64,000 nucleotides of DNA from Prevotella sp. (lineage in GTDB: Bacteria > Bacteroidota > Bacteroidia > Bacteroidales > Bacteroidaceae). Location: assembly GCA_017645645.1 (NCBI GenBank), contig JAGCOB010000008.1, positions 1-64,000 on the forward strand. Reading direction: 5' to 3'. The notes beneath the pieces are model-generated. The model was not told where the DNA came from and searched no databases. It was given only the letters and a program-made list of their open reading frames with translations. Below are positions 1 through 52,557 of the stretch, in pieces; positions within the stretch are counted from its first letter, which is position 1; the number at the start of each line of letters is the position of its first letter. Both the position numbers and the translations under genes were made by a program.

Positions 1-2608
1 CGGCACATCTCCCAACTACACCCTTACCATCAGTGGCACGGGTGCGATGCAGGATGCCAATTGGGGTGAGATGCCGTGGGATAGTTACAAAGATGGCATC
101 ACCACTGTTATCATAGAAGATGGTGTGACAAGCATTGGCAAAGGGTCTTTTAAAAATCACGAAAAGCTGGCTTCCATCACCATTGCGAACAGCGTGACTA
201 CGATTGGCGGGCAAGCCTTCGAACTCTGCTACGGTCTGACGGAATTCACGGTTCCCGATGGTGTGACGAACATTGACGGTGGTGCCTTCAATCAGTGTCT
301 AAACATGGAGACGTTCAACATCGGTACTGGGCTGGCGACCATTGACAATAGCGGTGTTTTCCTTGAATGCGCCAAACTCGCGACCTTCACGGTGGCGGCA
401 GGCAATACGGCTTTCAAGGCCGAGGACGGCGTGCTATTGACGTATGACGGCACGGAACTCGTGGCTTATCCAGCAGCAAAGACAGCCACTACCTATACTA
501 TCCCCGACGACGTGACAACGATTTGGGACTACGCTTTCTATCAGTGCACCAAACTCACGGAAGTCACCTTCCCCGCCAGCGCCACTATTATTGGATATAG
601 TGCATTCGATTTTTGCACGGCTCTGGCGACAGTCACCTTTGAAGCAGGTTCGCAGTTAGCCACCATCGATGACTATGCATTCGATAGTTGCTTTAGCCTC
701 TCCTCCATTACCATCCCCGCCAGCGTGACGAGCATCGGTGAGTGGGCGTTCTATGATTGCAGTGCTCTGGTGACGGTCACGATGCTTCCCGCCACGCCAC
801 CATTCCTTGGAAGCGATGCTCTTGTCATCGGCGGCTCGAATACCAACAAGAAGTTCTACTTCCACGGCACGGCATACGGCACAGATACATACTCGGACTG
901 GAACAATATGTACAACAATACGGGTAGTTTCAGCAGTTGGACTACAACCGTCATCGGCACCCTGACACTCAGCGAAGGGACGACGAAGAGTACTGCAGCC
1001 GATATGACTTACGATAACACGGAATATTACTATCAGGGCACCACCGTCACGCTGGGTCACGGCGACGCACCTGAAGGTAAAGTTTTCGCAGGTTACACGG
1101 TGAAGGATGCCAACGACAATGACGTTACCGTAACGGAAAACGAAGGTGTCTATACGTTCGATATGCCTGCTGGCGACGTGACAGCGACAGTCAATTGGAG
1201 AGAAATCATCCCCTACATCGACGCAGACGGTACTACGAAGTGTTGCACGGACTACACCGTGCTGACGGGTGAAGAAAGTGAGCTCGATGGTGGCTGGTAC
1301 TACGTTACGGGCACAGTCGATTATTGTGGCAGTATTCAAATTAACGACCACGTAAACATCATCCTCTGCGATGGTGCGACCATGAACATCGGTACTCCTG
1401 ACAATCGCATCAACGACGACTACGGTATCGTAGATAGCCATGATGATTGTTCCCTCACCATCTACGGACAGAGCGGACAGACGGGCAGGCTCAACGTCTA
1501 TAACGACGCCTCCGACAAAGCCGCCGTCGATTTGTGGTGCTACAATCAGTACGGTGGAAACGTCAACATTGACGCCAACTATGCAGCCCTCTCTCTTCAT
1601 AAAGATAGCGAATTCAACCTCAACCTCAAACGAGGCACACTCACCGTCACTGCGGCAAATGGTAAGGATGCTATCAAATGTAATACTGTCGTATATGGTG
1701 TCCTAATGGAGGGCGGCACGCTGGCTGCCACATCCATTGGTGGTACCGCTATAAATGGTCGCGTCAATTTCAGTGGTGGTACCCTCACGGCGAACGGAGG
1801 CGATAGCGGTTGTGGCATCAGTGGCTACGTCGCTCTCAGTATGAGAAGCGCCTTCGACAGCTTCACAGCCAGCAGTTTTAACAGCGATGTTTCCATTGCC
1901 TATGGAAAGTCAGTAAGCGACGGCACGAAGATATACACCAATTCGAATCAATCGGAAATCAAATCGCTGAAGAACGTGACGCTGACACTCCCGACGTGCA
2001 GCTTGATAGCCAACGAGGATCCTGCTCATGCAGGCGAATACTGGTCGACATTCTATCACCCAACGGCAGGCTATCAGGTTGACGCAAGCACAACGACAGC
2101 CTATATCGCTACACTGAATAGCGAAGAAACGGCACTGACGCTGACAGAGGTAGAAGGTGGATTCATCCCTGCAGGCCATGCGGTGATACTGAAGAGTACA
2201 ACATCCTCGTACGACATCGACCGTGCGGAAACAGGTGACGCCTTCGACTTCACAACGAACTCGTTGTTAGGTGGCGGTAAAGTCAATCCGACCTACGATG
2301 TCTATACCTTGGCAGCTAAGGATGGCGTAGTGGGTTTCTATAAGTTCACAGGCACCTCACTCAATCCGTACAAGGCACATCTGGAGTGTGCTCCTGCAGA
2401 CAGTCGTGACTACTATGGATTGGAAGAGGGTGAGACGACGAGCCTCTTCGAAATGAGAAATGAGAAAGGAGAAATGAGAAATGGAAATGAAGGAATGATA
2501 AATGATGCGTGGTATGACCTGCAAGGGCGTCGCATAGCTAATGGTCAAAAGCCAACTGCTAAGGGCTTGTACATCCACAATGGCAAGACTATTGTCATAA
2601 CTCCTTAA
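1..2608 (+). CDS. BspA-like leucine-rich repeat surface protein, 5' end outside window
   Basis: The frame is open to the first base and already reads LTISGTGAM before the first ATG at 47, so the start and signal peptide lie upstream. Residues about 1-270 after that ATG are LRR_5/BspA-type repeats (I-P-x-x-V-T-x-I-G-x-x-A-F-x-x-C). Next come an Ig-like or repeat segment (about 300-385) and a beta-helix-like module (about 390-620) containing WYYV, LCDG, MNIG and LTIYGQS. The C-terminus has WYDLQGRR followed by KGLYIHNGK, a tail typical of Prevotella secreted surface proteins. Known BspA-like proteins act in adhesion; that role here is inferred. A run of 7-bp repeats (2452-2500) encodes the stretch before WYDLQ. 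A tiny gene follows 30 bp downstream. Confidence 0.85.
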   Translation, partial: GTSPNYTLTISGTGAMQDANWGEMPWDSYKDGITTVIIEDGVTSIGKGSFKNHEKLASITIANSVTTIGGQAFELCYGLTEFTVPDGVTNIDGGAFNQCLNMETFNIGTGLATIDNSGVFLECAKLATFTVAAGNTAFKAEDGVLLTYDGTELVAYPAAKTATTYTIPDDVTTIWDYAFYQCTKLTEVTFPASATIIGYSAFDFCTALATVTFEAGSQLATIDDYAFDSCFSLSSITIPASVTSIGEWAFYDCSALVTVTMLPATPPFLGSDALVIGGSNTNKKFYFHGTAYGTDTYSDWNNMYNNTGSFSSWTTTVIGTLTLSEGTTKSTAADMTYDNTEYYYQGTTVTLGHGDAPEGKVFAGYTVKDANDNDVTVTENEGVYTFDMPAGDVTATVNWREIIPYIDADGTTKCCTDYTVLTGEESELDGGWYYVTGTVDYCGSIQINDHVNIILCDGATMNIGTPDNRINDDYGIVDSHDDCSLTIYGQSGQTGRLNVYNDASDKAAVDLWCYNQYGGNVNIDANYAALSLHKDSEFNLNLKRGTLTVTAANGKDAIKCNTVVYGVLMEGGTLAATSIGGTAINGRVNFSGGTLTANGGDSGCGISGYVALSMRSAFDSFTASSFNSDVSIAYGKSVSDGTKIYTNSNQSEIKSLKNVTLTLPTCSLIANEDPAHAGEYWSTFYHPTAGYQVDASTTTAYIATLNSEETALTLTEVEGGFIPAGHAVILKSTTSSYDIDRAETGDAFDFTTNSLLGGGKVNPTYDVYTLAAKDGVVGFYKFTGTSLNPYKAHLECAPADSRDYYGLEEGETTSLFEMRNEKGEMRNGNEGMINDAWYDLQGRRIANGQKPTAKGLYIHNGKTIVITP
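2452..2500 (+). repeat. Seven 7-bp units (AATGAGA type) inside the BspA-like gene
   Basis: The units read AATGAGA, AATGAGA, AAGGAGA, AATGAGA, AATGGAA, ATGAAGG, AATGATA. They encode the charged stretch between the last folded module and the C-terminal WYDLQGRR tail. The same AATGAGA unit recurs at 47563-47597, where it forms the 5' end of coaD. Confidence 0.8.
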
Positions 2609-12944: not shown

Positions 12945-12950
12945 AGCCTC

Positions 12951-17407: not shown

Positions 17408-17438
17408 AGTTTATATGTCGTTTTACAGTTATTGGGCT

Positions 17439-17466
17439 TATTGTCCTAAACAATAGGGCAAATATA
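17439..17466 (-). promoter_or_regulatory. Promoter box and inverted repeat before the sensor operon
   Basis: TATATTTG (minus strand, 17466-17459) fits the TAnnTTTG box. Just downstream, TATTGT and ACAATA form a 6-bp inverted repeat with a 5-nt spacer (17439-17455), at the expected transcription start. It could be an operator or a small leader hairpin. No good -33 element was found. Confidence 0.45.
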
Positions 17467-17475
17467 CATATAATT

Positions 17476-17507: not shown

Positions 17508-17541
17508 AAAACAATTTAACAAGCAAAGCTCTTGGGAAAGA

Positions 17542-19186: not shown

Positions 19187-19221
19187 AGTTTATAGTTCAT
19201 AGTTTATAGTTCATAATTATT
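19187..19221. repeat. Intergenic 7-bp repeat between divergent genes
   Basis: The units are AGTTTAT, AGTTCAT, AGTTTAT, AGTTCAT, AATTATT. They lie between the minus promoter of the M16 gene and the plus promoter of the PfkB kinase. Confidence 0.8.
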
Positions 19222-25368: not shown

Positions 25369-26433
25369 TTAGACATGAGGTTTTAATGATAATATCTGAC
25401 CGATACGCTCCACGATGGTCTCTGGAGCGATACGATTCATACAGGCATAGTCGCCGCGCTGACAGGTCTTCTGTCCGTAGATACTACACGGACGACAGTC
25501 GAGGGGAATCTGGATGGCATTCTCCGAACCTTGGTTCCACCCCATAAATCCGGCATAGGGATGGGTGGCACCCCAGATGCTGACGACAGGAGTGGCGACC
25601 AGTGAGGCGAGATGCATATTGGCGGAGTCCATAGACAGCATCACGTCGAGATGACTCATCAGGATCAGTTCTTGTTTGATGGTTTCCAGCATACTGCTCA
25701 CATAGACACATGCCTTGTACTGGCTGCACCATTGTGGGAATAGTTCGTCCTCTCTTTTTCCCCTGCCGAAAAGGAAGATGCGGGCTTCAGGATATTTGGC
25801 TATCAACTGCTCGATAACTTGCTGCATCAGTCGGGGCGGATAGATCTTTCCCTCGTGAGCAGCAAAGGGGGCGATGCCGATGCATAGTTGAGCGTTGAGC
25901 GTTGAGCGTTGAGCGTCTTGTGGCAACAGACTCAGGTCACCACCGCCTTCAGGGAAGATGGAGTGGAAGTCGAGTTCCACGGGATAGCCCAGCTTTTCCA
26001 GCACGTCGGCATATTTTTGGAAAGAGGTGGGCTGTTGGATGAGTTGTTTGTTGTTGACGGATGTCAGAAGACGGCGCCCCTTCCTGTGCTTGTTGATATG
26101 TGCCACCTTGTAGGGTCCGAGGTTGAAGCGCATACGCAGGAACTCAGAACGCAGCACGTTATGCAGGTCGGCGACGGCAGTAAACTGCTTGGCAGCCAGT
26201 CGGCGATAGAGGGCGTTAAGTCCCTTGATACCATGATACTCCCGTTTCAGGTCTGCCTCCATGAACCCGACATTAGGAGCCAGATTCTCAAAGAACGGAC
26301 GGGCATATTCACGACTCAGTACCGTAATCCTCACATCAGGGTATTGGCGGGCAAGGGAATAGACCACCGGCACAGCCATGGCGACATCGCCCAAGGCAGA
26401 GAAACGGATGATGAGGATGTGTTCTTTTTTCAC
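25369..26433 (-). CDS. Glycosyltransferase family 9 (heptosyltransferase-like)
   Basis: The product has 354 residues. It starts EHILIIRFSALGDVAMAVPVVYSL, the typical GT9 N-terminus, and has the C-terminal donor-site features DSANMHLASLVATPVVSIWGATHP. Family members add heptose or related sugars to the lipopolysaccharide core at the inner face of the inner membrane. Four exact GTTGAGC heptamers (25887-25914) lie in the linker between the two lobes and encode QRSTLNAQL. It overlaps the DUF4254 gene by 4 bp, a pairing common in Bacteroidales. Confidence 0.9.
   Translation of the reverse strand: MKKEHILIIRFSALGDVAMAVPVVYSLARQYPDVRITVLSREYARPFFENLAPNVGFMEADLKREYHGIKGLNALYRRLAAKQFTAVADLHNVLRSEFLRMRFNLGPYKVAHINKHRKGRRLLTSVNNKQLIQQPTSFQKYADVLEKLGYPVELDFHSIFPEGGGDLSLLPQDAQRSTLNAQLCIGIAPFAAHEGKIYPPRLMQQVIEQLIAKYPEARIFLFGRGKREDELFPQWCSQYKACVYVSSMLETIKQELILMSHLDVMLSMDSANMHLASLVATPVVSIWGATHPYAGFMGWNQGSENAIQIPLDCRPCSIYGQKTCQRGDYACMNRIAPETIVERIGQILSLKPHV
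25887..25914 (-). repeat. Four exact 7-bp repeats inside the GT9 gene
   Basis: GTTGAGC occurs four times in a row without mismatch. On the coding strand it supplies the STLNAQ-type stretch between the two Rossmann lobes. Confidence 0.9.
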
Positions 26434-27133: not shown

Positions 27134-28162
27134 ATGAAGATAGTGGTAGACGATAAGATTCCTTATATTCAGGAGAAACTGCGTCTCTTGACAGACGAGG
27201 TTTGCCCGATGAACGGGGCTGCTATCCATGCTGCTGATGTCAGGGATGCCGATGCTTTAATCGTTCGTACCCGTACCCGTTGTGATGAGGCATTGCTGAA
27301 AGGTAGCAAGGTACGTTTTGTAGCCACGGCGACTATTGGTTTCGACCATATTGACGGAGGTTGGTTAGAACGTGCCGGTATAGCATGGACGAGTTGTCCC
27401 GGCTGTAATGCCGCCTCTGTGGCACAGTATCTGGAATGTTCCCTGTTGTTATTACAGCGTGAGAAGGGACTTTCCCTCCAACAGTCGACCCTGGGTATTG
27501 TGGGCTGTGGACATGTCGGCTCTAAAGTCAAGGCAGTCGCAGAACAGTTGGGTATGCGTGTCCTTGTCTGTGACCCACCGTTGGAAAAAGTCAACAGCCA
27601 ACAGCCAAAGACCAACAGTTATGTCCCCTTGGATATCATTGAGCGACAGGCAGATGTGATTACCTTTCATGTTCCTCTGACCCGTGAGGGAGAATATGCC
27701 ACCTGGCACATGGCAGATGAGGCGTTCTTCCATCGTCTGTCGCGTATACCATATATAATAAATACAAGTAGGGGAGAGGTCGTCGATAATCTCGCCTTGT
27801 TATCTGCCCTACAGGACGGGAGGGTGCGTGATGCGGTGATTGATGTCTGGGAAGGTGAACCGCGCCTTCATCTTCCATTACTCGACCGTGTGTTTATCGG
27901 GACACCTCATATCGCAGGCTATTCCGCCGACGGGAAGGTGAATGCCGACAACATGGTGATGGATGCCCTCTGTCGCCATTTCGGTCTGCCCCATCCCGGT
28001 AAGGTGATGCCTCCGAAACTGCCTGCAACATTCCCTTATACGGGAGATCCGTTGGAATTATACAATCCGTTGAAGGATACTTTTGCCCTCAAGTCCAATC
28101 CTTCCGATTTTGAATCGTTGCGTAACCATTATCCGCTCCGAAGAGAACATTTTGACGTGTAG
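27134..28162 (+). CDS. pdxB: 4-phosphoerythronate dehydrogenase
   Basis: The product has 342 residues from ATG 27134 (MKIVVDDKIPYIQE). A start at 27089 would precede the promoter box. D-2-hydroxyacid dehydrogenase features are GCGHVGSKVKAVAEQLGMRV (NAD site), INTSRGEVVDN and PHIAGYSADGK (catalytic His). It oxidises 4-phosphoerythronate in the DXP-dependent pyridoxal phosphate pathway. Imperfect 7-bp repeats (27592-27619) encode NSQQPKTNS, inserted just after the NAD-site strand, where most family members have a short loop. A hairpin overlaps the stop codon. Confidence 0.92.
   Translation: MKIVVDDKIPYIQEKLRLLTDEVCPMNGAAIHAADVRDADALIVRTRTRCDEALLKGSKVRFVATATIGFDHIDGGWLERAGIAWTSCPGCNAASVAQYLECSLLLLQREKGLSLQQSTLGIVGCGHVGSKVKAVAEQLGMRVLVCDPPLEKVNSQQPKTNSYVPLDIIERQADVITFHVPLTREGEYATWHMADEAFFHRLSRIPYIINTSRGEVVDNLALLSALQDGRVRDAVIDVWEGEPRLHLPLLDRVFIGTPHIAGYSADGKVNADNMVMDALCRHFGLPHPGKVMPPKLPATFPYTGDPLELYNPLKDTFALKSNPSDFESLRNHYPLRREHFDV
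27592..27619 (+). repeat. Four 7-bp repeats inside pdxB
   Basis: The units are CAACAGC, CAACAGC, CAAAGAC, CAACAGT. They are reverse complements of the TTGGCTG-type unit seen at 32554-32586 and 49791-49818. Confidence 0.8.
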
Positions 28163-28594: not shown

Positions 28595-28598
28595 TGAA

Positions 28599-32540: not shown

Positions 32541-34486
32541 GGAAACTACAATATTGGCTGTTGGCTGTTGGCTGTTGGCTGTTGGCAAATTCCTGTGCCC
32601 GTATGGGACAGCCTGACGGTGGTTGGTTCGACGACGACCCGCCACGTATCATCGGCTCTACCCCGGCAGACAGGGCGACAGGGGTGACGACCAAGAAGAT
32701 CACCATCCAGTTTGACGAGTATATCAAATTGGCCGATGCCACACAGAACGTCATCGTGTCACCTCCGCAAATGGAGATGCCGGAAATCAAGGCGGCAGGC
32801 AAGAAGATTGTAGTGGAACTGAAAGACACGCTGAAGCCGAATATGACCTATACCATCGATTTCAGTGATGCCATCAGCGATAACAACGAGGGTAATCCCT
32901 TGGGAAACTATACCTTTACTTTCTCGACAGGAGAGCAGATAGACACCTTTGAGGTGGCAGGCAATGTGCTGGATGCCTCCAGCCTGGAGCCAGTGAAGGG
33001 TATTCTGGTAGGTCTTTATGACGACCTCAGTGATACTGTCTTCAAGAAGAAACCCCTGTTACGTGTGGCACGTACTGACGGACGGGGACGCTTTGTCATC
33101 AAGGGCGTAGCCCCCGGTGAATACCGTGTCTATGCCTTGCAGGATGCAGACGGTGACTATGTCTTCAACCAGAAGAGTGAGATGATTGCTTTCTCACATC
33201 AGACTTATCAGCCATCGTCAAAGCCGGATATCCGCCAAGACACGATATGGAAAGACACCCTGCATATCGATAATATCATCCGGGTGCCCTATATCCATTA
33301 TTATCCCGATGATATCGTATTGCTGGCCTTCCAGGAGATACAGACAGACCGTTACCTGCTGAAACAGCCGGACCGTTCAGAGGCGGACCGTTTCACGCTC
33401 TATTTCAGTTACGGGAATGAGAAACTGCCTGAGATCAGAGGTCTGAACTTTAATGCTGACGATGCCTTTGTCTTGGAGGCAAGTGCCAAGAAAGACACCC
33501 TGACCTATTGGTTGAAGGATACCACCCTGGTCAATCAGGATACGCTACGCATGGAACTGAGTTATCTGATGACAGATACCATGGGAGTATTATGTACCCA
33601 GGTGGATACGGTGGAAGTCCTGTCGAAGACAAGGTATGAGAAGCGACAGAAGGAACTGAAGAAAGAAAGGGAGGAGTGGGAGAAGGCCCAGGAGAAACTG
33701 AAAAAAAGGGGAGAGCCTTACGACAGCATCATGCCTCCCAAGTCGTTACCGGTTATTTACAAGGTTAAGTCACAGATGGATCCCGACTATCTTGTCACTT
33801 TTGAGATGCAGTCTCCGCTTGTCCGTTGTGACACGTCAGCCATCCACCTCTATACGAAGATAGACACGTTATGGTATAATACACCCTTTGAATTCCATCG
33901 GAAGGACTTGATGTTGCGGACCTATGAGTTTATTGCCGAATGGCAGCCGGACACGGAGTATAGTCTGGAAATCGACTCCGCTGCCTTTGTGGATATCTAC
34001 GGGCTGGCCTCGTCACCTTATAAACAAGGTATCAAGGTGAAGGCGATGGACGAATATGCCACCCTGTTGATGCAACTGAGCGGTATCACTGACACGACCG
34101 TAGTGGCGGAACTGCTTGACAAGAATGACAAGCCTCTCAAACAGGTACGTGCCGCTGATGGCAATGTGGAGTTCTTCTATCTCTCGCCCGGTGTCTATTA
34201 CCTTCGTGCCTTCATTGACCGTAACGGGAACGGGAAATGGGATACGGGCGACTATGACAAGGACTTGCAGGCAGAGGAGATGTATTATTACCCCCAGAGC
34301 ATCGAGTGTAAGGAGAAGTTTGACGTCACCCTGCCCTGGAATCTGACAGGTACCCCGTTGGTACGGCAGAAACCTGCTGCCATTACCAAACAGAAACCTG
34401 ACAAGGAGCAGCAGAAGTTGCGTAACAGGAATGCGGATCGTGCCCGTGAGATGGGAATAGAATATGTAAAGAAAGTAAAGGAGTAA
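32537..34486 (+). CDS. Ig-like (Big_5) domain lipoprotein
   Basis: The product has 649 residues. The signal sequence ends at the lipobox LANSC with Cys at 20. Residues about 35-135 are a Big_5-type Ig domain (PPRIIGSTPADRATGV...KKITIQFDEY). A carboxypeptidase-regulatory-like segment follows (GNVLDASSLEPVKGILVGLYD). The rest is repetitive beta structure with a charged coiled coil near 370-395, and a positively charged C-terminus. It is probably anchored in the outer membrane. Four exact TTGGCTG heptamers encode the signal peptide core (see 32554-32586). It lies between GH3 and DUF3108 genes. Confidence 0.85.
   Translation: MRKLQYWLLAVGCWLLANSCARMGQPDGGWFDDDPPRIIGSTPADRATGVTTKKITIQFDEYIKLADATQNVIVSPPQMEMPEIKAAGKKIVVELKDTLKPNMTYTIDFSDAISDNNEGNPLGNYTFTFSTGEQIDTFEVAGNVLDASSLEPVKGILVGLYDDLSDTVFKKKPLLRVARTDGRGRFVIKGVAPGEYRVYALQDADGDYVFNQKSEMIAFSHQTYQPSSKPDIRQDTIWKDTLHIDNIIRVPYIHYYPDDIVLLAFQEIQTDRYLLKQPDRSEADRFTLYFSYGNEKLPEIRGLNFNADDAFVLEASAKKDTLTYWLKDTTLVNQDTLRMELSYLMTDTMGVLCTQVDTVEVLSKTRYEKRQKELKKEREEWEKAQEKLKKRGEPYDSIMPPKSLPVIYKVKSQMDPDYLVTFEMQSPLVRCDTSAIHLYTKIDTLWYNTPFEFHRKDLMLRTYEFIAEWQPDTEYSLEIDSAAFVDIYGLASSPYKQGIKVKAMDEYATLLMQLSGITDTTVVAELLDKNDKPLKQVRAADGNVEFFYLSPGVYYLRAFIDRNGNGKWDTGDYDKDLQAEEMYYYPQSIECKEKFDVTLPWNLTGTPLVRQKPAAITKQKPDKEQQKLRNRNADRAREMGIEYVKKVKE
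32554..32586 (+). repeat. TTGGCTG tandem repeat in the lipoprotein signal sequence
   Basis: Four exact 7-bp copies (32554-32581) plus TTGGC. Read in all three frames they encode the hydrophobic WLLAVGCWLLA core before the lipobox. Gain or loss of one unit would shift the frame. Confidence 0.95.
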
Positions 34487-39156: not shown

Positions 39157-39461
39157 AGTTTGTATGCCACCTCACAAGGACTGTCCCCCTGTGATTCCAC
39201 AAGGGGATGTCCTGTGCGCATCGGAGTGCCTGCGATTACTTGTCGCAGTATCTGCCATCACCTGTTCTAAGGGCTAGTATGCCTGATACTAAAGGCTGTT
39301 ATACCCCTATGGAAGATACTGGAACGCCCTTTAACAGATACTGGAAAGGGGTTAAGGGTTAAGGGGTTAGGGGTTAGAGGTTAGGGATTAGATATCAGTA
39401 TAAGACAAAAAAAAATAAAAAAAAGTCACCTGAAAATTCGTAGACCGCAATGGAAATGTTG
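39157..39461. other. Gene-free interval with degenerate repeats
   Basis: No gene was seen. It holds an imperfect hairpin (GGAC..TCCCC.TGTG with CACA.GGGG..GTCC, 39178-39214), several copies of GATACTGGAA-like words, and a 7-bp repeat run at 39348-39391 (GGGGTTA, AGGGTTA, GGGTTAG-type units). Confidence 0.6.
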
Positions 39462-40261: not shown

Positions 40262-43200
40262 ATGAAAGTCACGGAACTCTTTGAGCGTTGTATGGAGATC
40301 GTACAGGCAGAGCCTTCGGCTGCTGTGCTGCGCTATATGCATGAGACTTTGGTACTTGCCTGTGCGGAGGCGTTGAGGGGCAGCGGAAAGGGTTTCGGTA
40401 ACCTGATGGCACAGACCGACTATCTGTGTAAGGTAGCAGGGATGGGTATTGCCGACCGTATCGCCGTCCAGACCATGCGACGGCATTCCAACAGGAAAGA
40501 CAGTGTGCTGACCCGTGATGACCTCCGTTATGACGTGCGTGCCCTTGCCCTCTTTATCTCCGCTGTCTTCTCAGAGGATATTCCCCATGAGTTGGTGACG
40601 CGTATTCCCACCATGGGCCGTCCTACCAACCTCACCTTACAGATCAACCAGCGTTATGTGCGTTGCGTGGTGTCCTGGTGGGATGATGAGTATATCTATG
40701 CAACGACGGATGAGGGGAGTGTGTGTATCAAGACGGATGATGAGACGTTGCGGCCTTTGTTGACAGAGGGGATGCAACTCAACCTGTTGGAATGTCATCG
40801 GGAAGGACAGACCATCCAACCTAAACTCATCGTGGTGGAACCTGACTTCCTCGTGGACATCTCTTCCCTTGCTGCCTGTTTCTCTGACAGGGAACATCTG
40901 CCCATCGCCTATACCTTAGGACGTTTCAAGCCGCAGGCCAATACACAGCCCATCCTATTGGGTAACTTTGCGGGTGCTGCCTTGGACGACATTATCAACC
41001 AAGCGGACTTTCAAGTCAACGATACCATCCGCCACTCGTTCCGCGAACAGGTCCTGCAGTTCTGCACGTGTCTGAACTTTAATGCCCAGCAGTTCAAGGA
41101 AGACGCCTACCGACAAGTGGAGAATATCAAGGAGGCAGTCACCCAACTCTCCTCCTCCCTCCTCTCTCCTCTCTTAGAGCCCTCCTTCGTCTGTGAGCAT
41201 TTAGGACTGCAGGGACGTGTCGACCTGATGACGAGTGACAAGGATTTGTTGGTGGAGCAGAAATCTGGGAAGAACTGGAACCTGGAACATCCCTCCGACC
41301 TTACCACGATGGCTTCCCATCTCTATGCCGAGGCTCATTACGTGCAGTTATTACTCTACTATGGTGTCCTGCGCTATAACTTCCATCTCCCTGCCGATAA
41401 GGTGGATATCCGATTGCTCTATTCCCGTTATCCTGCCAAACAGGGACTGTTGATAGTGAACTACTACCAGAAACTCTTCCATGAGGCGATTCATTTGCGT
41501 AACCAGATTGTGGCACAGGAGTTTAAGATGGCACAGGAGGGGATAGGAAGTATCATGCCTCAGATAGAGGTATTGAAGACACTCTCTGAGACAGAACGGG
41601 CGTATGTGGAGCGGATGCTTTTCTTCGTCTATCGGGAACAGTTGGCACAGAAGGTAGGTACCCAGGAGGGACAGGGCGGTGCTGTGGCTGACTTGTGGAA
41701 TATGCCGCTGACGGAGAAACGGGATACGGGCAGCATCTTCTATGGCTTGCGTATCTTACACAAGGAACAGTCATCACCCTATAGCGGCTTCGACCGCCTG
41801 ACTTTCTCGATTCTTGACATGGGCGACGACTTCCTGCCTAATTTCCGTCGTAATGACATGGTGTGCCTCTATGCCTATGAGGGAGAACCCAAGGTGTGTG
41901 CCGCCATCTTGTATAAAGGTGTCATCGAACAACTGAGCGACCATGAGGTGACGGTACGACTCAATGACGGACAACAGCATCCGGAGGTCTTCGAGGACAG
42001 TACCTATGCCATCGAGCCTTCGTTCTCGGATCGTGGCACGACCTCGTCCATCCGTTCCTTACAGGCGTTCTGTACGGCAACCCCAGACCGTCGTGCCTTG
42101 CTCTTGGGTGAAAGAGAGCCCCGTCGTGACAATACCCTCCGTCTCTCGCGTTCCTATCATCCCCACTATGACGATATCCTTCTGAAGGCCAAACAGGCAC
42201 GGGATTATTTCATCCTGCAAGGTCCTCCAGGAACAGGCAAGACCTCCATGGCACTTCGCTTCCTCGTAGAGGAGGAACTCTCAACTTTAAACTCTCAACT
42301 CTCAACTTTAATAATGGCCTACACGAACCGTGCCGTGGATGAGATTTGTGCGATGCTGACGGATGCAGGGATTGATTACCTCCGACAGGGAAGTGAGACC
42401 TCTTGTGACCCTCGTTTTGCCGATCATCTGTTGGACAGGGTGATGGGAGAGCGTCCCCGGATGGACGAGGTACGTCAACGGATGATCGATACGAAGGTGG
42501 TGGTATGCACGACCTCCACCATGCTCTCACGCCCTCACCTCTTCCAACTGAAACACTTCTCTTTGTGTATTGTCGATGAGGCTTCGCAGATCCTGGACCC
42601 TAACATCATCGGCATCCTTGCCTCACCACAGATCGACCGTTTCATCTTGATAGGCGACCATAAACAACTGCCTGCCGTCATCCAACAACCTGATGATGTG
42701 CCGCATTTGTCTGGTTGCCGTCAGTCCTTGTTTGAACGGTTGCTGCGTATCGAAAGGGAAGCAAAACGTACTGCCTTCACGGCCATCCTACAACGGCAGG
42801 GACGGATGCATCCGGATATTGCCACCTTCCCCAACGAGATGTTCTATGCCCAGGAGCAGTTGCAAACTGTACCTTGTCCTCATCAGGAAGAACAGCAACT
42901 CAACTACACACAACCATCTAAGGATGCCTTGGACGACCTCCTCAAGCAGCACCGCGTCATTTTCTTCCCTAGTGATACTAGTTCAACTAGTGACACTAGT
43001 TCATCTAGAGATACTAGTATTACTAGCGACAAAGTCAACCCCCAGGAGGCACGTCTCGTCGCTGATCTCCTGCACCGCATCTATCGCCAGTATGGTGAAC
43101 GTTTCGATGTCCATCGTACAGTGGGTGTCATCGTGCCCTACCGCAACCAGATAGCCATGATACGTCGTGAGATAGAGGCACTGGACATTCCTGCCCTGTT

Positions 43201-43468
43201 GGATATCTCCATTGATACTGTCGAGCGGTATCAGGGAAGCCAGCGGGATGTCATCATCTACAGCTTTACCGTCCGGCATCCCTATCAACTCGATTTCCTC
43301 ACCGCGAATTGCTTTGAGGAGGACGGTCATGTCATCGACCGTAAACTCAATGTTGCCATGACCCGGGCACGGAAGCAGTTGTTGATGATTGGTGAACCGG
43401 AAGTCCTCTCCCAGAATCCGCTCTTTGCCAAACTGATTCGTCGCTATTCCAAAATAATTGATAATTGA
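40262..43468 (+). CDS. Dna2-like nuclease-helicase
   Basis: The product has 1068 residues. A PD-(D/E)XK nuclease motif (DLMTSDKDLLVEQKSGK near 320-335) precedes an SF1 helicase with Walker A LQGPPGTGKTSM near 650, CIVDEASQILD (motif II), GDHKQLPAVIQ (motif III), VERYQGSQRDVIIYS (motif V) and NVAMTRARKQLLMIG (motif VI). This order matches Dna2/AddB-like or Upf1-like DNA repair and recombination enzymes. Two repeat runs sit in loops: 42280-42307 (encoding STLNSQLST right after motif I) and 42971-43024 (encoding DTSSTSDTSS). The stop codon is formed by a further repeat run (43456-43483). Confidence 0.9.
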   Translation: MKVTELFERCMEIVQAEPSAAVLRYMHETLVLACAEALRGSGKGFGNLMAQTDYLCKVAGMGIADRIAVQTMRRHSNRKDSVLTRDDLRYDVRALALFISAVFSEDIPHELVTRIPTMGRPTNLTLQINQRYVRCVVSWWDDEYIYATTDEGSVCIKTDDETLRPLLTEGMQLNLLECHREGQTIQPKLIVVEPDFLVDISSLAACFSDREHLPIAYTLGRFKPQANTQPILLGNFAGAALDDIINQADFQVNDTIRHSFREQVLQFCTCLNFNAQQFKEDAYRQVENIKEAVTQLSSSLLSPLLEPSFVCEHLGLQGRVDLMTSDKDLLVEQKSGKNWNLEHPSDLTTMASHLYAEAHYVQLLLYYGVLRYNFHLPADKVDIRLLYSRYPAKQGLLIVNYYQKLFHEAIHLRNQIVAQEFKMAQEGIGSIMPQIEVLKTLSETERAYVERMLFFVYREQLAQKVGTQEGQGGAVADLWNMPLTEKRDTGSIFYGLRILHKEQSSPYSGFDRLTFSILDMGDDFLPNFRRNDMVCLYAYEGEPKVCAAILYKGVIEQLSDHEVTVRLNDGQQHPEVFEDSTYAIEPSFSDRGTTSSIRSLQAFCTATPDRRALLLGEREPRRDNTLRLSRSYHPHYDDILLKAKQARDYFILQGPPGTGKTSMALRFLVEEELSTLNSQLSTLIMAYTNRAVDEICAMLTDAGIDYLRQGSETSCDPRFADHLLDRVMGERPRMDEVRQRMIDTKVVVCTTSTMLSRPHLFQLKHFSLCIVDEASQILDPNIIGILASPQIDRFILIGDHKQLPAVIQQPDDVPHLSGCRQSLFERLLRIEREAKRTAFTAILQRQGRMHPDIATFPNEMFYAQEQLQTVPCPHQEEQQLNYTQPSKDALDDLLKQHRVIFFPSDTSSTSDTSSSRDTSITSDKVNPQEARLVADLLHRIYRQYGERFDVHRTVGVIVPYRNQIAMIRREIEALDIPALLDISIDTVERYQGSQRDVIIYSFTVRHPYQLDFLTANCFEEDGHVIDRKLNVAMTRARKQLLMIGEPEVLSQNPLFAKLIRRYSKIIDN
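42280..42307 (+). repeat. 7-bp repeat in the helicase gene
   Basis: Units CTCAACT, TTAAACT, CTCAACT, CTCAACT. They encode LSTLNSQLST between helicase motifs I and Ia. Confidence 0.85.
42971..43024 (+). repeat. 9-bp repeat in the helicase gene
   Basis: Units AGTGATACT, AGTTCAACT, AGTGACACT, AGTTCATCT, AGAGATACT, AGTATTACT. Each is near-palindromic at the junction ACTAGT and encodes a Ser/Thr/Asp-rich linker between helicase domains. Confidence 0.85.
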
Positions 43469-43483
43469 TAATTGATAATTAAT
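43456..43483 (+). repeat. AATTGAT repeat at the helicase stop codon
   Basis: Three exact AATTGAT units and AATTAAT. The gene's last residues (IIDN) and stop lie within it, and it runs into the next promoter (TATCTTTG, 43494-43501). Confidence 0.9.
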
Positions 43484-43493
43484 ATTTATTTTT

Positions 43494-46525: not shown

Positions 46526-47563
46526 ATGATGGACGAAGATTTTGACATCCGACAAGAGCAGTTCTCCAGTTCTGAGAAAGACTTTGAGAATGCACTCCGC
46601 CCGTTGTCGTTCAGTGATTTCAGTGGACAACAACAGGTGGTGGAGAACCTGCAGGTGTTCGTGGAGGCGGCGAAATATCGTGGAGAGCCCCTCGACCATA
46701 CGTTGTTGCATGGTCCTCCAGGACTGGGTAAGACGACGCTTTCGAACATCATCGCCAATGAGTTGGGCGTGGGCTTTAAGATTACCAGCGGTCCTGTACT
46801 TGACAAACCAGGCGATCTTGCAGGCATCCTGACCTCGTTGGAGAAGAATGACGTGTTGTTTATCGACGAGATACACCGTCTGTCACCCGTCGTGGAGGAA
46901 TATCTGTATTCCGCTATGGAAGACTATCGTATCGATATCATGATAGACAAGGGTCCTTCGGCTCGTTCGATACAGATAGACCTCAATCCGTTTACGTTGG
47001 TGGGTGCCACCACCCGTAGCGGACTCCTGACAGCGCCGTTGCGTGCCCGTTTCGGTATCAATATGCACTTACAGTATTACGAGCCGGAGACGTTGCAGAA
47101 AATCATCGAGCGTTCTGCAGGCATCTTACGTGTTCCTATCACCGTGGATGCCGCTGCCGAGATCTCACGCCGTTCTCGTGGTACGCCTCGTATTGCCAAT
47201 GCTTTGTTGCGTCGTGTTCGTGACTTCGCACAGGTCAAGGGTAGTGGACGCATCGATACGGAGATTACGAAGGTAGCCCTGACGGCATTGAATATCGACA
47301 AGTTTGGACTGGATGAGATAGACAACCGTATTCTGTTGACCATTATCGATAAGTTCCGGGGCGGTCCTGTGGGTATCACCACCATTGCAACGGCGATTGG
47401 AGAGGATGCAGGAACAGTGGAAGAAGTTTATGAGCCTTTCCTGATTATGGAAGGTTTTATCAAGCGTACCCCTCGCGGACGTATGGTGACAGAATTGGCC
47501 TATCGTCATTTCGGGCGTAATCCTTATACGGGGAATATCATGCAACCGAACCTCTTCGAGTAA
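46526..47563 (+). CDS. ruvB: Holliday junction branch migration ATPase RuvB
   Basis: The product has 345 residues. Walker [14 protein letters not shown], Walker [10 protein letters not shown], sensor 1 [19 protein letters not shown], and the C-terminal winged helix with [18 protein letters not shown] are all present. RuvB forms hexamers that drive branch migration with RuvA. ruvA and ruvC are not adjacent. The next gene, coaD, is reached through a 7-bp repeat run. Confidence 0.97.
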
Positions 47564-47597
47564 ATGAGAAATGAGGAATGAAGAATGAGAAATGAAA
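47563..47597 (+). repeat. AATGAGA-type 7-bp repeat at the coaD start
   Basis: Units AATGAGA, AATGAGG, AATGAAG, AATGAGA, AATGAAA. They run from the ruvB stop into the first codons of coaD, and match the unit inside the BspA-like gene. Confidence 0.9.
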
Positions 47598-48070
47598 ATG
47601 AAGAAAAGAGAAATGCCGTGCGTGTCGGTGTTCTTGTAGGAAGTTTCGATCCGTTTACCGTAGGTCACGATTCTATTGTGACAAGAGCCTTGGGCTTATT
47701 CGATCGCCTCGTGATTGGCGTGGTGGGCGATCAGGTACATAAGCCTAATATGCAACCGGCAGAACAGCGAATGCAGACCATCAAGGAGCTTTATGTCAAC
47801 GAGCCGCGTATAGAGGTGAAACCCTACTATGGTCTTGCTGTTGATTTTGCTAAAGAGCAGGGTGCTTATTATATAGTGAAGGGTGTCCGCTCCGTTAAGG
47901 ACTTCGAATATGAACGTGACCAGGCGGACATCAACCGTCAGATCAGCGGCATCGATACCATCCTGTTGTTTGCAGAGCCCCAGTATGCCAGTGTCAGCAG
48001 TTCGCTTGTCCGTGAGTTGCAGCATTTCGGAAGGGATGTCTCTGAGTTCCTGCCTAAGAAACAAGATTAA
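47585..48070 (+). CDS. coaD: Phosphopantetheine adenylyltransferase
   Basis: The product has 161 residues from ATG 47585, or 150 from GTG 47618 (VRVGVLVGSFDPFTVGH), which would match the family's usual N-terminus. The first 11 residues are encoded by repeat-like DNA and may be an artefact. Motifs are GSFDPFTVGH (nucleotide site), KGVRSVKDFEYE and YASVSSSLVREL. It makes dephospho-CoA in coenzyme A synthesis. Confidence 0.95.
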   Translation: MRNENEEKRNAVRVGVLVGSFDPFTVGHDSIVTRALGLFDRLVIGVVGDQVHKPNMQPAEQRMQTIKELYVNEPRIEVKPYYGLAVDFAKEQGAYYIVKGVRSVKDFEYERDQADINRQISGIDTILLFAEPQYASVSSSLVRELQHFGRDVSEFLPKKQD

Positions 48071-48075
48071 TCGTC

Positions 48076-49077
48076 ATGAAGAAGTATTTATATTTGGTGA
48101 GCCTCATTGGCTTGATGGCTTGTAGCACGATCAAGAAACAGCCTGTAGAGGAACAACCTGTTGTCACGATTCAGTTTAATGCGGACTCCGCCTATGCTTT
48201 CTGTGCCGCCCAGTGTGACTTCGGACCCCGTGTGATGAACAGTGATGCCCATGAGCGTTGTGGTACCTGGATCCAACAGAAGTTCCAACAATACGGTTAT
48301 CAGGTCGAGATGCAGAAAGCCGATCTGAAGGGCTATAACGGTACGATACTCAAAAGTACGAACATCATCGCGAAACAGCCAATTGCTAATAGCCAAGAGC
48401 CAACAGCAAAGATTTTTATCTGCGCCCATTGGGACAGTCGTCCTTGGGCTGATAATGACCCTGACTCCGCCAACTGGCACAAACCTGTGATGGCAGCGAA
48501 TGACGGTGCCAGTGGTGTTGCCGTGATGTTGGAGTTAGCACGACTCATCCAACAGAACGACTCCCTGAATATCACTGTTGACTTCATCTGCTTCGATGCA
48601 GAAGACTGGGGCGTTCCCCAATGGGATGAGAAAGGTGACGGTACAGACTCATGGGCTTTGGGTTCCCAGTATTGGGCTAAAGAATATAGCCAACAGCCAA
48701 AATCTAACGACCAACAGCCTTATCAATATGCCATCCTCCTTGATATGGTAGGTGGACAGGGTGCGAAGTTCTATCAGGAATCCTATTCCTTACAGAAGGC
48801 AGGTGCTGTTGTAGAGAAGGTATGGCGTGCCGCCAATGCTGCAGGCTATGGCAGTTTCTTCCCGATGAAGGAAAGTGGTGGCGTGACAGATGATCATATC
48901 CCTGTGAACGATGTGGCAAATATCCCCTGTATTGATATCATCAATTGCTATCCTGACTGTAAACAGAGTTCCTTCGGTCCTACATGGCATACCATTCAGG
49001 ACGATATGCAGCATATCGACAAGAACACCCTGCAAGCCGTCGGGCAGACCTTGGTACAGTTGATATATAACGAATAG
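48076..49077 (+). CDS. M28 family peptidase / glutaminyl cyclase-like lipoprotein
   Basis: The product has 333 residues. The signal sequence has lipobox LMACS with Cys near 16. Metal and active-site features are AHWDSRPWADND, ANDGASGVAVMLELARL, CFDAEDWG, ILLDMVGGQG and GVTDDHIPVND. This layout fits Zn-dependent glutaminyl-peptide cyclotransferase-like M28 proteins, probably anchored in the periplasm. Two 7-bp repeat runs lie in loops: 48376-48410 (QPIANSQEPTAK) and 48687-48720 (SQQPKSNDQQP). It begins 5 bp after coaD. Confidence 0.9.
   Translation: MKKYLYLVSLIGLMACSTIKKQPVEEQPVVTIQFNADSAYAFCAAQCDFGPRVMNSDAHERCGTWIQQKFQQYGYQVEMQKADLKGYNGTILKSTNIIAKQPIANSQEPTAKIFICAHWDSRPWADNDPDSANWHKPVMAANDGASGVAVMLELARLIQQNDSLNITVDFICFDAEDWGVPQWDEKGDGTDSWALGSQYWAKEYSQQPKSNDQQPYQYAILLDMVGGQGAKFYQESYSLQKAGAVVEKVWRAANAAGYGSFFPMKESGGVTDDHIPVNDVANIPCIDIINCYPDCKQSSFGPTWHTIQDDMQHIDKNTLQAVGQTLVQLIYNE
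48376..48410 (+). repeat. 7-bp repeat in the M28 gene, first run
   Basis: Units CAGCCAA, TTGCTAA, TAGCCAA, GAGCCAA, CAGCAAA. Confidence 0.8.
48687..48720 (+). repeat. 7-bp repeat in the M28 gene, second run
   Basis: Units TAGCCAA, CAGCCAA, AATCTAA, CGACCAA, then CAGCCT. This is the same family as 48376-48410, pdxB and 32554-32586. Confidence 0.8.
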
Positions 49078-49091: not shown

Positions 49092-50408
49092 TTAAATCTG
49101 TCCTGCCTCTACCATCAGGACAACCCGTTCTGTGAGGCGGTCGATACCTTCTGGGTCGTATTTCTTCTTCAGACTCGCTCCGAAAGCCCAGGCAAATGCC
49201 TGATAGAAACCGGCACGTACGGGACCCAGGAAGGCCTGGATGAGTTCGTAGCCGGAGGAGTTGCTCTCACGATAGATGAGTTTGATAAGTAGTTTTCCCT
49301 GTGAGTAGGTGAGTTTCTTCATACGGGGCTTATATTCCTTCATGATACTCTTCTCCACGAGTTTCATGTGTGCATCCCTAGCTTTCTTGTCTGGCAGTGT
49401 CTCCAAGAACTCTGCTGTCTCCATCATGATGGCACGTGCCTCTTTGGCGATAGGCAGTACGATCTTCACGTTCTTCACCAGACGGTTATAGGCCTGCTGT
49501 TGTTTCTTGCTGCTGAAGGTGATAGGCGGGTAGACATAGACATTGTTCATCTCCATATACTGGATGCTGTCGCCGTTTTCCAAGACCTTACCCACCTTCA
49601 CTGTCGGCACGAAGGTAGGACTATCTAAGTCTATATCCTGTCGCTTCTGATCAGTATTCTGCGCATGGATGCCCAGCGTCATCATCAGTACCAGCAGCAA
49701 TACCAGTCGTCTGATATCCTGTATGATCAGTCCTGCAAGGGTCATGCCGAAGGTGGCTGTGATATGGACGAGAGAGCCTTTAGCAAGCTGTTGGCTGTTG
49801 GCTGTCGGCTTTTGGCCTGCCTCATCGCTATAGACACATTGGAACTTATGTCTTGGAAAAGTTTTCTCTTTTTTGAAACGGTTACGGAGGGCACGGGCCA
49901 GAGGATCACCCTTTACCTTCCAGAACTCTGCCACCTGTATCTTCGTGGAATCGAGTTTCAGGGCGGCACCCATGGACGAGAACAGTCTTGCTTCCGTTTC
50001 ACATGCCTTGAGGATGAGTAGTGCCTTATCCTTCAGGGAGTCGATGGCATCGATGATATAGTCGTACTTGTCTAAATCAAATTCGTCTGCTGTTTCTTCA
50101 GAGAAAGTCTTCTGCAGGGCGGTAATCTCCGCATCAGGGTTAATCTCCAGCAGTCGCTTCCGCAAAGCCTCCACCTTCGGTTGTCCTACCGTCTGTGTCG
50201 TTGCCATCAATTGCCGATTGATGTTCGTCACATCCACGCAGTCGAAGTCTACGATGGTTAACAAGCGAACTCCTGTGCGTACCAAAGCCTCTGCACACCA
50301 TGAGCCCACACCACCTGTTCCGAAGATGATGACTCGTTGTTCACTGATGCGTTCCATCGCCTCTGTACCCAGCAACGCTTCTGCCCGTTGGAAGATTTCC
50401 TTTCCCAT
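49092..50408 (-). CDS. TcdA-like (ThiF/E1) protein fused to DUF4294
   Basis: The product has 438 residues. Residues 1-235 are an E1-like ThiF/TcdA domain (VIIFGTGGVGSWCAEALVRTG; DFDCVDVTNINRQ; YIIDAIDSLKDK), the type that cyclises N6-threonylcarbamoyladenosine in tRNA. Residues about 238-255 (RRLVLLLVLMMTLGIHAQ) look like an internal signal peptide. The remainder is DUF4294 (YPPITFSSKKQQQAYNRLVKNVK; GPVRAGFYQAFAWAFG), normally a separate exported protein. Where a separate gene would have ATG, the sequence reads ATC (IRRLV). A 7-bp repeat run (49791-49818) encodes QKPTANSQQL in the TcdA part. Confidence 0.8.
   Translation of the reverse strand: MGKEIFQRAEALLGTEAMERISEQRVIIFGTGGVGSWCAEALVRTGVRLLTIVDFDCVDVTNINRQLMATTQTVGQPKVEALRKRLLEINPDAEITALQKTFSEETADEFDLDKYDYIIDAIDSLKDKALLILKACETEARLFSSMGAALKLDSTKIQVAEFWKVKGDPLARALRNRFKKEKTFPRHKFQCVYSDEAGQKPTANSQQLAKGSLVHITATFGMTLAGLIIQDIRRLVLLLVLMMTLGIHAQNTDQKRQDIDLDSPTFVPTVKVGKVLENGDSIQYMEMNNVYVYPPITFSSKKQQQAYNRLVKNVKIVLPIAKEARAIMMETAEFLETLPDKKARDAHMKLVEKSIMKEYKPRMKKLTYSQGKLLIKLIYRESNSSGYELIQAFLGPVRAGFYQAFAWAFGASLKKKYDPEGIDRLTERVVLMVEAGQI
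49791..49818 (-). repeat. 7-bp repeat in the TcdA-DUF4294 gene
   Basis: Plus-strand units TTGGCTG, TTGGCTG, TCGGCTT, TTGGCCT. Confidence 0.85.
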
Positions 50409-50829: not shown

Positions 50830-52557
50830 TTATTTCTTTTCGGTTTGTACTTGTGTCATCACACGGAGGAAGTTGCCTCCCCAGATTTTCTGGATATCCT
50901 TGTCAGCATAGCCACGTGCCATCAGTCGGCGGGTGAAATTCAGCAACTCGGAAGAGTCGGCAAGTCCACGGATGCCTCCGTCTCCATCGAAGTCAGTGCC
51001 CAGTCCGACATGGTCGATACCCATGACCTCAATAGCGTGTTCGAGATGGGCGATGGCATCCTCTATCGTCGCCTCCCCGTCAGGACGAAGGAAACCATGA
51101 TAGAGGGTGATTTGCATCACACCGCCCTTGGCTGCGAGGGCACGCATCTGGTCGTCAGTGAGGTTACGGGGATGGTCACAGAGAGCACGACAACTGCTAT
51201 GGCTGCATACGATGGGCAGTTTGCTGATCTCCAAAGCATCGTAGAAACTCTTCTCGCTGGCATGACTGAGATCGACCATAATGCCCAGGCGGTTCATCTC
51301 GCGGACGACTTCCTTTCCAAAGGCACTGATACCATTGTGAGTCTGATTTCCCTTCGCGGAGTCGCAGATATCATTGTCGCCGTTATGGCAGAGAGTGATA
51401 TAAACGATTCCCCTTTCGGCGAAATATTTCAGGTTATCCAGTTTTCCGTCAAGGGCAATACCGTTCTCAATGCCCAGCATGATACTTTTCCGCCCGTTAC
51501 GCTTGTTCTCCCAAAGATCGTTGGGTGTCCGTGCAAGAGCAAGATAAGACTGATGGCTTGTCACAATATTCTCTATCTTGTCAAAGATACGGTCGGCAAA
51601 AGCCTTAGGCTGTTCAGTAGGCTGGGGGAGGTATGCCACCATGATGGTAGCATCCTGATGCCCCTCTGTCATTTTATGCAAGTCGACGAGTAGTCTCTCG
51701 TCACGGCTCCCGAAGTCAACACCCTGAGGAAAGAACATCGGGGTGTCGCAATGGGTGTCAAGGGTCATGATGTGCTGGTGCATCATACATGCCTGATGAT
51801 AGGATGTCGCCTCACGGACAAGCCACTCAAAGAGAGGCAGTCCATCGTCAAGACATTCGGGATGCCATTGTACGCCGATGATACTCTTGAACTCACGACT
51901 CTCCATCGCCTCAATGATACCGTCCTCCGATTTCGCCACAACGCAGAACTTGTCACCACAGTCACAGACTGCCTGATGGTGGAAGGAATTAACGTTGAGC
52001 GTGGAACGGTTAGCGGTTAACGTGTAGAGTTGAGAGAGGATAGAGTCTTTCTCGATGACGACTTTGTGAGTAGCGACGTTACGGTCTTCTTTCTGGGAGT
52101 GGTTGAGGGTGGCGATGTCTGTGATGTCTTGCTTGACCTTTCCACCCAAAGCCATAGCGAGGGTTTGGATGCCCCTGCAGATACCCAAAATAGGAATCTG
52201 GCGGTTATAGGCAAGACGGGTGATGAAGAGTTCTGGAAGGTCACGTTCCTCGTTGATTTCACCCAGTTTCGGATCAGGTTCTTCGTCTGCATAGCGAGGG
52301 TCATAGTCGCCTCCTCCGCTGAGTATCAGTCCGTCAACCATCTCCAGCGTGTTGATGATGACATCCGTATCGGCAAGAGGAGGGATGATGACAGGAACGC
52401 CTCCTGCCTTCTCAACCGATTTGTAATAACCTTCAGCGAGTTTACAGGTCAGTTCACCATAATTGCCCGTGATACCGATGACGGGTTTATGGGTTGTCTC
52501 AGGAAATGTCGAATAGACATTCTCTGTCAACAGCGACTGCCAGTCATAACGTTTCAT
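50830..52557 (-). CDS. C26 glutamine-amidotransferase-like plus M19 dipeptidase fusion
   Basis: The product has 575 residues. Residues 1-245 are a class I glutamine amidotransferase/gamma-glutamyl hydrolase (PuuD-like) domain with Cys in GICRGIQTLA near 131 and His in GVQWHPECL. Residues 255-575 are a membrane dipeptidase (M19) domain with DTHCDTPM, MVDLSHASEK, SHSSCRALCDHPRN and GLGTDFDGDGG. No signal peptide is seen, so it is cytoplasmic. The two activities could together degrade gamma-glutamyl peptides; this is inference. A run of seven 7-bp units (51988-52036) encodes LTANRSTLNVNSF in the C26 part. Confidence 0.88.
   Translation of the reverse strand: MKRYDWQSLLTENVYSTFPETTHKPVIGITGNYGELTCKLAEGYYKSVEKAGGVPVIIPPLADTDVIINTLEMVDGLILSGGGDYDPRYADEEPDPKLGEINEERDLPELFITRLAYNRQIPILGICRGIQTLAMALGGKVKQDITDIATLNHSQKEDRNVATHKVVIEKDSILSQLYTLTANRSTLNVNSFHHQAVCDCGDKFCVVAKSEDGIIEAMESREFKSIIGVQWHPECLDDGLPLFEWLVREATSYHQACMMHQHIMTLDTHCDTPMFFPQGVDFGSRDERLLVDLHKMTEGHQDATIMVAYLPQPTEQPKAFADRIFDKIENIVTSHQSYLALARTPNDLWENKRNGRKSIMLGIENGIALDGKLDNLKYFAERGIVYITLCHNGDNDICDSAKGNQTHNGISAFGKEVVREMNRLGIMVDLSHASEKSFYDALEISKLPIVCSHSSCRALCDHPRNLTDDQMRALAAKGGVMQITLYHGFLRPDGEATIEDAIAHLEHAIEVMGIDHVGLGTDFDGDGGIRGLADSSELLNFTRRLMARGYADKDIQKIWGGNFLRVMTQVQTEKK
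51988..52036 (-). repeat. 7-bp repeat in the C26-M19 gene
   Basis: Plus-strand units ATTAACG, TTGAGCG, TGGAACG, GTTAGCG, GTTAACG, TGTAGAG, TTGAGAG; degenerate but with regular spacing. Confidence 0.7.

Follow-up and report, generated by a model that had tools for sequence, protein, structure and literature searches.

Seven-base tandem arrays that keep their sites and differ in their repeat words among related Prevotellaceae genomes

The window analysed here, a 64,000-base stretch of Prevotella sp. DNA (positions 1 to 64,000 of contig JAGCOB010000008.1, assembly GCA_017645645.1), carries tandem arrays of seven-base units inside unrelated genes and between genes. Several of these sites – the 5' end of coaD, a loop of an M28 peptidase, a helicase loop and the gap at 19187 – are occupied in related genomes by an array of a different heptamer. 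This suggests a rate of rewriting far above that of ordinary DNA. Heptanucleotide repeats are on record for many bacteria, slippage being the guess as to their cause; unit differences between sister genomes make that cause testable.

The window lies in contig 7 of a 2,085,418-base Prevotellaceae draft genome that is 64% complete, and it has a G+C content of 49.8%. Among the best 80 of the matches listed, its RuvB is 99% identical to that of RUG12503, an uncultured Prevotellaceae metagenome-assembled genome (MAG), and 97% identical to that of a reindeer Prevotella MAG. The genome of RUG12503 (G147) was used as the sister genome, at ca. 90% DNA identity; G148 stands at ca. 80%, and G035, G037 and HUN156 were further relatives for same-site comparison. 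The "own sample" is 415,484 bases of the window's genome, made up of the window and 19 further stretches. Open reading frames (ORFs) were called mechanically and are not curated genes. RuvB was named by similarity, and the other gene names come from the present reading of translations or from an earlier reading of the window that had listed 14 array places (the original prediction).

In the 19187 gap the unit is AGTTYAT in the window, AATTGAG/AATTGAT in G147 and AATTCTT in HUN156, with lengths within one base of each other; G148 and G035 have no array there. The helicase loop at 41147 is built of CTCCTCT in the window, AGCCAAC in G147, a TCTTACC-type unit in G148 and CTCTCAA in G037 (by eye). 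M28 loop 1 has a CAGCCAA-type array in the window, an AGGTCAA-type array in G147, five copies of CTCTCCA in G148 and a CTCTCAA-type array in G035; the array length is equal in the window, G148 and G035, and deviates in G147. At the 5' end of coaD the units are AAATGAG in the window, TTCATAG-type in G147, TTCAAAG/TTCATAG in G148 and AAGTGAA-type in G037 (by eye). Other arrays vary in presence, length or unit. The GT9-like array is TTGAGCG in the window, TTGAGAG with 30 extra bases in G147, and TGGAGAG of equal length in G148; the helicase array at 42276 has a related CTATCAA-type counterpart in G147; the pdxB array at 27592 is present in G147 with point changes and absent in G148; and the array in the putative signal peptide at 32554 is absent from G147 and G148, with a TTTCTCA-type array found by eye in G037. 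A separate observation at the 5' end of coaD is that G035 (L216, ca. 4263–4356) has, by eye, a stretch with an eight-base period (GAATTGAA) and not a heptamer array.

Alignment of the own sample with G147 gave 27 rows covering 68,476 bp, of which 19 were 85–99% identical and eight, partly paralogues, were at 67–81%. Eighteen sites had an array in at least one of the two genomes and both flanks in the other. Median identity at these sites was 0.68, compared with 0.90 in 120 control segments, taken from segments already aligning, a choice that favours high control values. Insertions or deletions were present at 78% of the array sites and 5.8% of these controls, and 12 of the 18 sites fell below the control 5th percentile of identity. 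In a repeat of the test, ORF sites and gap sites were each given controls of their own (90 placed in 96 tries and 90 in 105), and the 11 in-ORF array sites had an identity of 0.48 against 0.92 in 90 matched controls (p = 7e-5). By script, the units at five of the 18 sites differed by at least two changes, and at five others the second genome had no 7-bp array, though one of these (the coaD 5' end) holds a different array by eye. The arrays of pdxB (with point changes), 43454, 58981 (unchanged) and two L009 sites were stable between the genomes.

Copy-number differences, all of them between species, include whole units. One pair of orthologous arrays differs by 21 bp and lies within long ORFs in both genomes. 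An AGTGGAG array differs by 14 bp, or two units, between L009:6127–6162 and L247:16748–16794 in the sister genome; here the own ORF (222 amino acids) stops at the array and the sister ORF (333 amino acids) continues. The proposal that the arrays keep the reading frame holds at the coding sites compared, with this 14-bp difference as the one exception.

Seven-base periodicity is in excess. Tandem Repeats Finder returned 58 rows for the window, 16 of them of period 7. Exact runs of at least ten matched bases in the window numbered eight at period 7, one at period 6, and three each at periods 9 and 14; no further period between 4 and 15 had any. In the own sample, with one Markov shuffle as control, there were ten period-7 runs of three exact copies and none in the shuffle; the heptamer arrays of the original prediction are real. 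Exact tandem runs with at least p+3 matched bases at period p numbered 37 at period 7 (2 shuffled) and 8, 7 and 4 at periods 6, 8 and 9 (1, 0 and 0 shuffled). Among two-copy runs the surplus was larger at period 6 (214 against 84 shuffled) than at period 7 (93 against 20). Eighty RuvB-centred loci from Prevotellaceae and neighbours, 1.43 Mb in all, had 66 p+3 runs of period 7 against 2. The longer period-7 tandem runs are non-random, above both shuffled sequence and all other tested periods. A looser detector, requiring 17 of 21 matches at lag 7, found 52 arrays in the own sample, or 12.5 per 100 kb. The shared unit families described earlier were also seen, CAGCCAA (the complement of TTGGCTG) being the commonest own unit with 7 of the 93 two-copy runs.

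The arrays occupy positions that tolerate extra DNA: surface loops, signal peptides, gene ends and gaps. In the own sample 35 of the 52 arrays are inside ORFs, which cover 91% of the sample, so that ORFs are somewhat avoided; in G010 only 3 of 40 arrays are in ORFs with a 100-amino-acid cut and 5 of 40 with an 80-amino-acid cut. The M28 peptidase was aligned over 30 loci from 98 matching genomes and five RuvB loci. Loop 1 is short in 26 of the 35 aligned homologues. Read by eye from the DNA, it is heptamer-built in the window and in four of the five nearest of its 34 homologues, and in none of the other 29; four other homologues have a longer loop 1 with no clear array. Array-bearing loops exceed the short loop by 2 to 4 residues and have unrelated residues, in agreement with the claim that the arrays add to or replace sequence where this is tolerated. 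In loop 2 of relatives, an ACACTCA array (G051), a CACCCTT-type array (G067) and a CTCTCCA-type array (G035) were found by eye. Also by eye, loop 2 of L134 has a 6-bp GTCGAC-like array where other species have heptamers.

In the window the C26-M19 loop has ca. 4 residues more than in five array-free homologues; among the eight rows of that alignment, one is empty at the loop and one other (L089) is array-like, in protein only. Array-free orthologues of both M28 and C26-M19 lack the residues encoded by the arrays, and the reading of the arrays as insertions was not refuted at these two genes. The wording that arrays "invade" genes fits in part – the 19187 site is empty in two relatives and there is a 21-bp difference within an ORF – while several sites stay as the unit changes. 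Arrays of this kind would let proteins change fast and mostly in frame, and the linkers they encode should not be read as conserved function.

Unit sharing was compared among 154 sites in eight genomes, after 46 of 210 arrays had been dropped for similar flanks (some because the flank held an array) and neighbours within 1 kb had been merged. The dominant unit was common to 188 of 2096 site pairs within genomes (9.0%) and to 240 of 9685 between genomes (2.5%); 2000 label shuffles gave a mean of 3.6% and a maximum of 6.2%. Pairs between the window genome and G147 shared the dominant unit in 61 of 1334 cases, and these two genomes draw on a common unit pool. For G010, G061, G146 and, in part, G147, stretches were selected that contain pattern matches, so densities and within-genome sharing in them are biased; the differences in words among these four are not due to this selection, since all fit the same pattern.

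That pattern, YNNYCAA, fits 19 of the 46 own units, where 500 null draws gave a mean of 3.8 and a maximum of 10, and its reversed form fits eight (null mean 3.7). Of 100 genus genomes, 74 contain one or more runs of four YNNYCAA words, with counts from 0 to 427, as do 88 of 247 genomes of a phylum sample. These counts are a partial measure of arrays, as they include overlapping windows of one array and make only YNNYCAA-type arrays visible; their control is the backward pattern alone, without shuffled genomes. In most of the array-rich genus genomes the count is above this control. Within arrays whose consensus fits YNNYCAA, 89 of 500 units vary at position 2, where G/C swaps are the most frequent change, and 11 of 500 vary at position 4. 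Own arrays vary in 8 to 9 of 63 units at positions 1 and 3.

Two adjacent arrays were counted as a pair when they lay on opposite strands no more than 200 bp apart. Twenty-two of these pairs have the order TTG..CAA (eight in RuvB loci, six each in G010 and G061, one each in G119 and G006, none in the own sample) and one has the order CAA..TTG; several lie between convergent ORFs. Paired arrays could perhaps fold as hairpins and act as terminators. A sequence preference such as YNNYCAA and the polarity of the paired arrays would be features of the mutational process itself.

The data favour slippage with copying between arrays over slippage alone, and the reading tentatively preferred, at somewhat under an even chance, is that arrays slip and are also rewritten from other arrays of the same genome. 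Slippage is proposed on account of the whole-unit differences: arrays would grow and shrink during replication. They may in addition be overwritten from arrays elsewhere in the genome, through short-homology template switching or ectopic conversion, for which the shared YCAA/TTGR core is a possible anchor, while selection would mostly preserve frame, avoid stops and favour hydrophilic linkers. Donors inside the genome are suggested by the unit pool shared among unlinked loci. Point mutation with spread inside an array is unlikely, since, at ca. 10% divergence, every copy has a word that departs from that of the other genome at two to five of its seven letters. The main rival is slippage alone, with a preference for seven-base steps and YNNYCAA-like words and with arrays lost and reborn independently at a few tolerant sites; we regard it as a real possibility that falls clearly short of even. 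It accounts for whole-unit differences between orthologous arrays and for units that differ by species, as local seeds might, and a 2007 survey, as reported in two papers, has both the heptamer excess and a polymerase-contact idea (PMC4679880, PMC4692102). Eight of the 18 sites keep their unit within one change by script (GT9 included, TTGAGCG to TTGAGAG), which counts for slippage alone and against rewriting. Should array tolerance be limited to a few per cent of positions, several same-site coincidences would be expected by chance, and this keeps slippage alone alive. Its prediction, however, is a word that stays the same at each site but for point changes, whereas six of the 18 sites (five by script, two of these with related words, and coaD by eye) hold different arrays in both genomes, and unlinked loci share units and mixed variants. 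M28 array sites also cluster by clade, and independent births are disfavoured because the site persists in this way, as an inherited site with changed content. Rewriting from other arrays is itself weighed down by several results. No copying event was observed and no donor tract was identified, and, with few array-tolerant positions, independent births could give some of the same-site, different-unit cases. The seven gap or ORF-edge sites, at 0.76 against 0.92 in 90 controls, do not differ significantly (p = 0.068); two of the six swaps (42275 and 27064) are between related words two changes apart; and the position-2 peak comes mainly from G061 and G146 and is absent in own arrays (2 of 63 units). 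YNNYCAA is about as common as its backward control, or less common, in G008 (132 and 125), G145 (108 and 110) and G059 (71 and 165). The backward control is also the commoner in many phylum-sample genomes (16 against 60 in G318, 9 against 81 in G354), so the preference is not borne out beyond the genus. Identical 28-mers at several G045 loci were considered as a sign of dispersal and rejected, since the arrays, shared by six loci, precede copies of one small gene.

A broader form of the rewriting idea is a genome-wide exchange pool, in which any array can be overwritten from another via YCAA/TTGR microhomology, so that sites are inherited, contents circulate, and protein loops and signal peptides are from time to time rewritten in full. 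We consider this rather doubtful; if true, proteins would be diversified, perhaps throughout Bacteroidota, by a dispersed repeat of a protein-free form. That the arrays are linkers or regulatory elements, kept because NSQ/T-rich loops or gene-end hairpins are useful, is improbable. The extra residues do lie in variable loops, the paired arrays have the polarity given above, and of the own coding arrays 23 have CAA on the sense strand and 6 on the antisense strand, though this bias also follows from stop avoidance. Most aligned M28 homologues have no array, the same site carries differing units, and unrelated genes are affected. Species-specific dispersed unit families, of which some show mixed variants across many loci, might also be written by a dedicated templated or mobile system (an RNA-templated reverse transcriptase or a transposase), which we judge very improbable. 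Reverse-transcriptase templating was rejected: RVT_1 presence was unrelated to array density in 99 relatives (G000 left out; p = 0.59; transposase families were outside the search) and in the 52 relatives at least 90% complete (p = 0.68). G055, 99% complete and rich in pattern matches (214), has no RVT_1 match.

Two families were tested against array density, RVT_1 and MutS_V. The latter relates to a third MutS-like protein (L296–L302) of ca. 600 amino acids, found in 37 of 100 genus genomes; its N-terminus is hydrophobic by eye, and MutS domain V is its sole Pfam match. Among the 52 genus genomes at least 90% complete, the 27 carriers (G128 by a partial match) have a median of 0 pattern matches per Mb, 15 having none, and the 25 non-carriers a median of 17.3, one having none (p = 7e-6). 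On a MutS1 domain V DNA tree of 51 of these genomes (G009 has no MutS1), the anticorrelation has p = 0.0027, or 0.012 with genome size. Its carriers also include G010, G028 and G061, where pattern matches number 29 to 90. As a missing suppressor of arrays it was rejected, the association not being replicated outside the genus. In the same class and family outside the genus, array matches occur in 18 of the 43 carriers as against 3 of the 17 non-carriers, in the opposite direction (p = 0.097). A hand count of the other 186 phylum-sample genomes leans the opposite way too, with matches in 17 of 26 carriers and 49 of 160 non-carriers. The explanation of the arrays does not rest on this protein.

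Cyanobacterial STRR are seven-base tandem units at many loci; they belong to another phylum than the Prevotellaceae host here. The STRR words CCCCAAT, TTGGTCA and CAACAGT also fit YNNYCAA. A 2007 survey of long simple sequence repeats, as given in the available text of two papers, found a heptanucleotide excess scattered across bacteria, which resembles the seven-base tandem excess here; unlike here, neither unit replacement at a conserved site nor a YNNYCAA form is described in that text (PMC4679880, PMC4692102). The same text describes TAACTGA and GGGAATC heptamer arrays and an excess of heptamers. According to the accessible part of one paper, TAACTGA heptamers occur in Beggiatoaceae and in some Cyanobacteria and Bacteroidetes, most of them lying upstream of start codons, and heptamer indels between two Cyanothece strains are mostly in 7-nt steps, with some arrays in ORFs (PMC4679880). 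As far as that text goes, the TAACTGA family is like the present arrays in its many loci, its 7-nt-step indels, its presence in some ORFs and, in some species, the admixture of other heptamers; it differs in having one word, whereas many words are found here and two-thirds of own arrays are in ORFs (PMC4679880). TAACTGA is not among the listed dominant units of the own genome and G147, though a genome-wide search for TAACTGA itself was not made. PINSR, in the text available, is a dispersed, lineage-specific repeat of the Prevotella intermedia group; unlike the arrays here it is 188 bp long, intergenic and not a heptamer array (PMC4755523). The literature matches listed, in a search whose coverage leaves out most subscription journals, contained nothing on unit replacement at conserved sites or on Prevotella heptamer arrays. 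The heptamer excess is already known; same-site unit replacement was not met in the literature listed.

The arrays of the window are collected in Table 1. Twelve of the 14 places in the original prediction were recovered by Tandem Repeats Finder; the other two, 48687 and 51988, were not, and are degenerate by eye. The in-gene array at 41147, in the same ORF as the one listed at 42280, was absent from that list. The array placed earlier inside coaD does touch the gene; since it spans both the gap after ruvB and the putative coaD start, it is a 5'-end array and not a loop.

Table 1. Seven-base arrays and degenerate stretches in the window
Array	Position	Strand	Location	Detection
AAATGAG-type array	2450..2505	+	near 3' end of ORF 47-2608 (BspA-like per the original prediction)	Tandem Repeats Finder
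AGTTTAT/AGTTCAT array	19187..19215	.	gap overlapping ORF start	Tandem Repeats Finder
GTTGAGC array	25887..25916	-	GT9-like ORF	Tandem Repeats Finder
CAACAGC array	27592..27618	+	pdxB	Tandem Repeats Finder
TTGGCTG array	32554..32586	+	putative signal peptide (by eye), Ig-like lipoprotein	Tandem Repeats Finder
AGGGGTT array	39346..39391	.	intergenic	Tandem Repeats Finder
CTCCTCT array	41147..41174	+	helicase ORF	Tandem Repeats Finder
CTCTCAA/CTTTAAA array	42276..42311	+	same helicase ORF as 41147	Tandem Repeats Finder
ATAATTG array	43454..43484	.	helicase ORF end	Tandem Repeats Finder
AAATGAG array	47562..47615	+	coaD 5' end	Tandem Repeats Finder
CAGCCAA-type array	48376..48412	+	M28 loop 1	Tandem Repeats Finder
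Degenerate AGCCAAC stretch	48680..48720	+	M28 loop 2	by eye, not in Tandem Repeats Finder output
GCTGTTG array	49787..49816	-	TcdA-like dehydratase/DUF4294 ORF (names from the original prediction)	Tandem Repeats Finder
Degenerate TTGAGCG/GGTTAGC-like stretch	51980..52036	-	C26-M19 ORF	by eye, not in Tandem Repeats Finder output
TTCTCAA array	58981..59010	.	intergenic	Tandem Repeats Finder

A few other repeats were seen. An array of period 8/24 bp (CGGAATGC...) at 18464–18557 fills a loop, placed at 18451 in the sister comparison, of an M16-like peptidase (by reading), where G147 has a CATCTTC heptamer array. Arrays of period 9/18 lie at 24031–24067, 43724–43768 and 63513–63578, the last two having in common an ACTCAGA/TCTGAGAAC-like word. 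Downstream of pdxB, 28598–28630 and 28683–28719 match many scattered places in G147 and G148, sometimes both on opposite strands, and this pair is perhaps a dispersed inverted repeat. The small-gene copies of G045 (MKANTWKT..., L253–L260) are each preceded by a near-identical CATTCAA array. These shared blocks, and others in G061, were considered as the common termini or flanks that a MITE or REP-type mobile repeat would have. The block at 12364–17743 of the window is 99% identical to contig 86 of G147, most other aligned parts being at 85–95%; it is either recently exchanged or strongly conserved.

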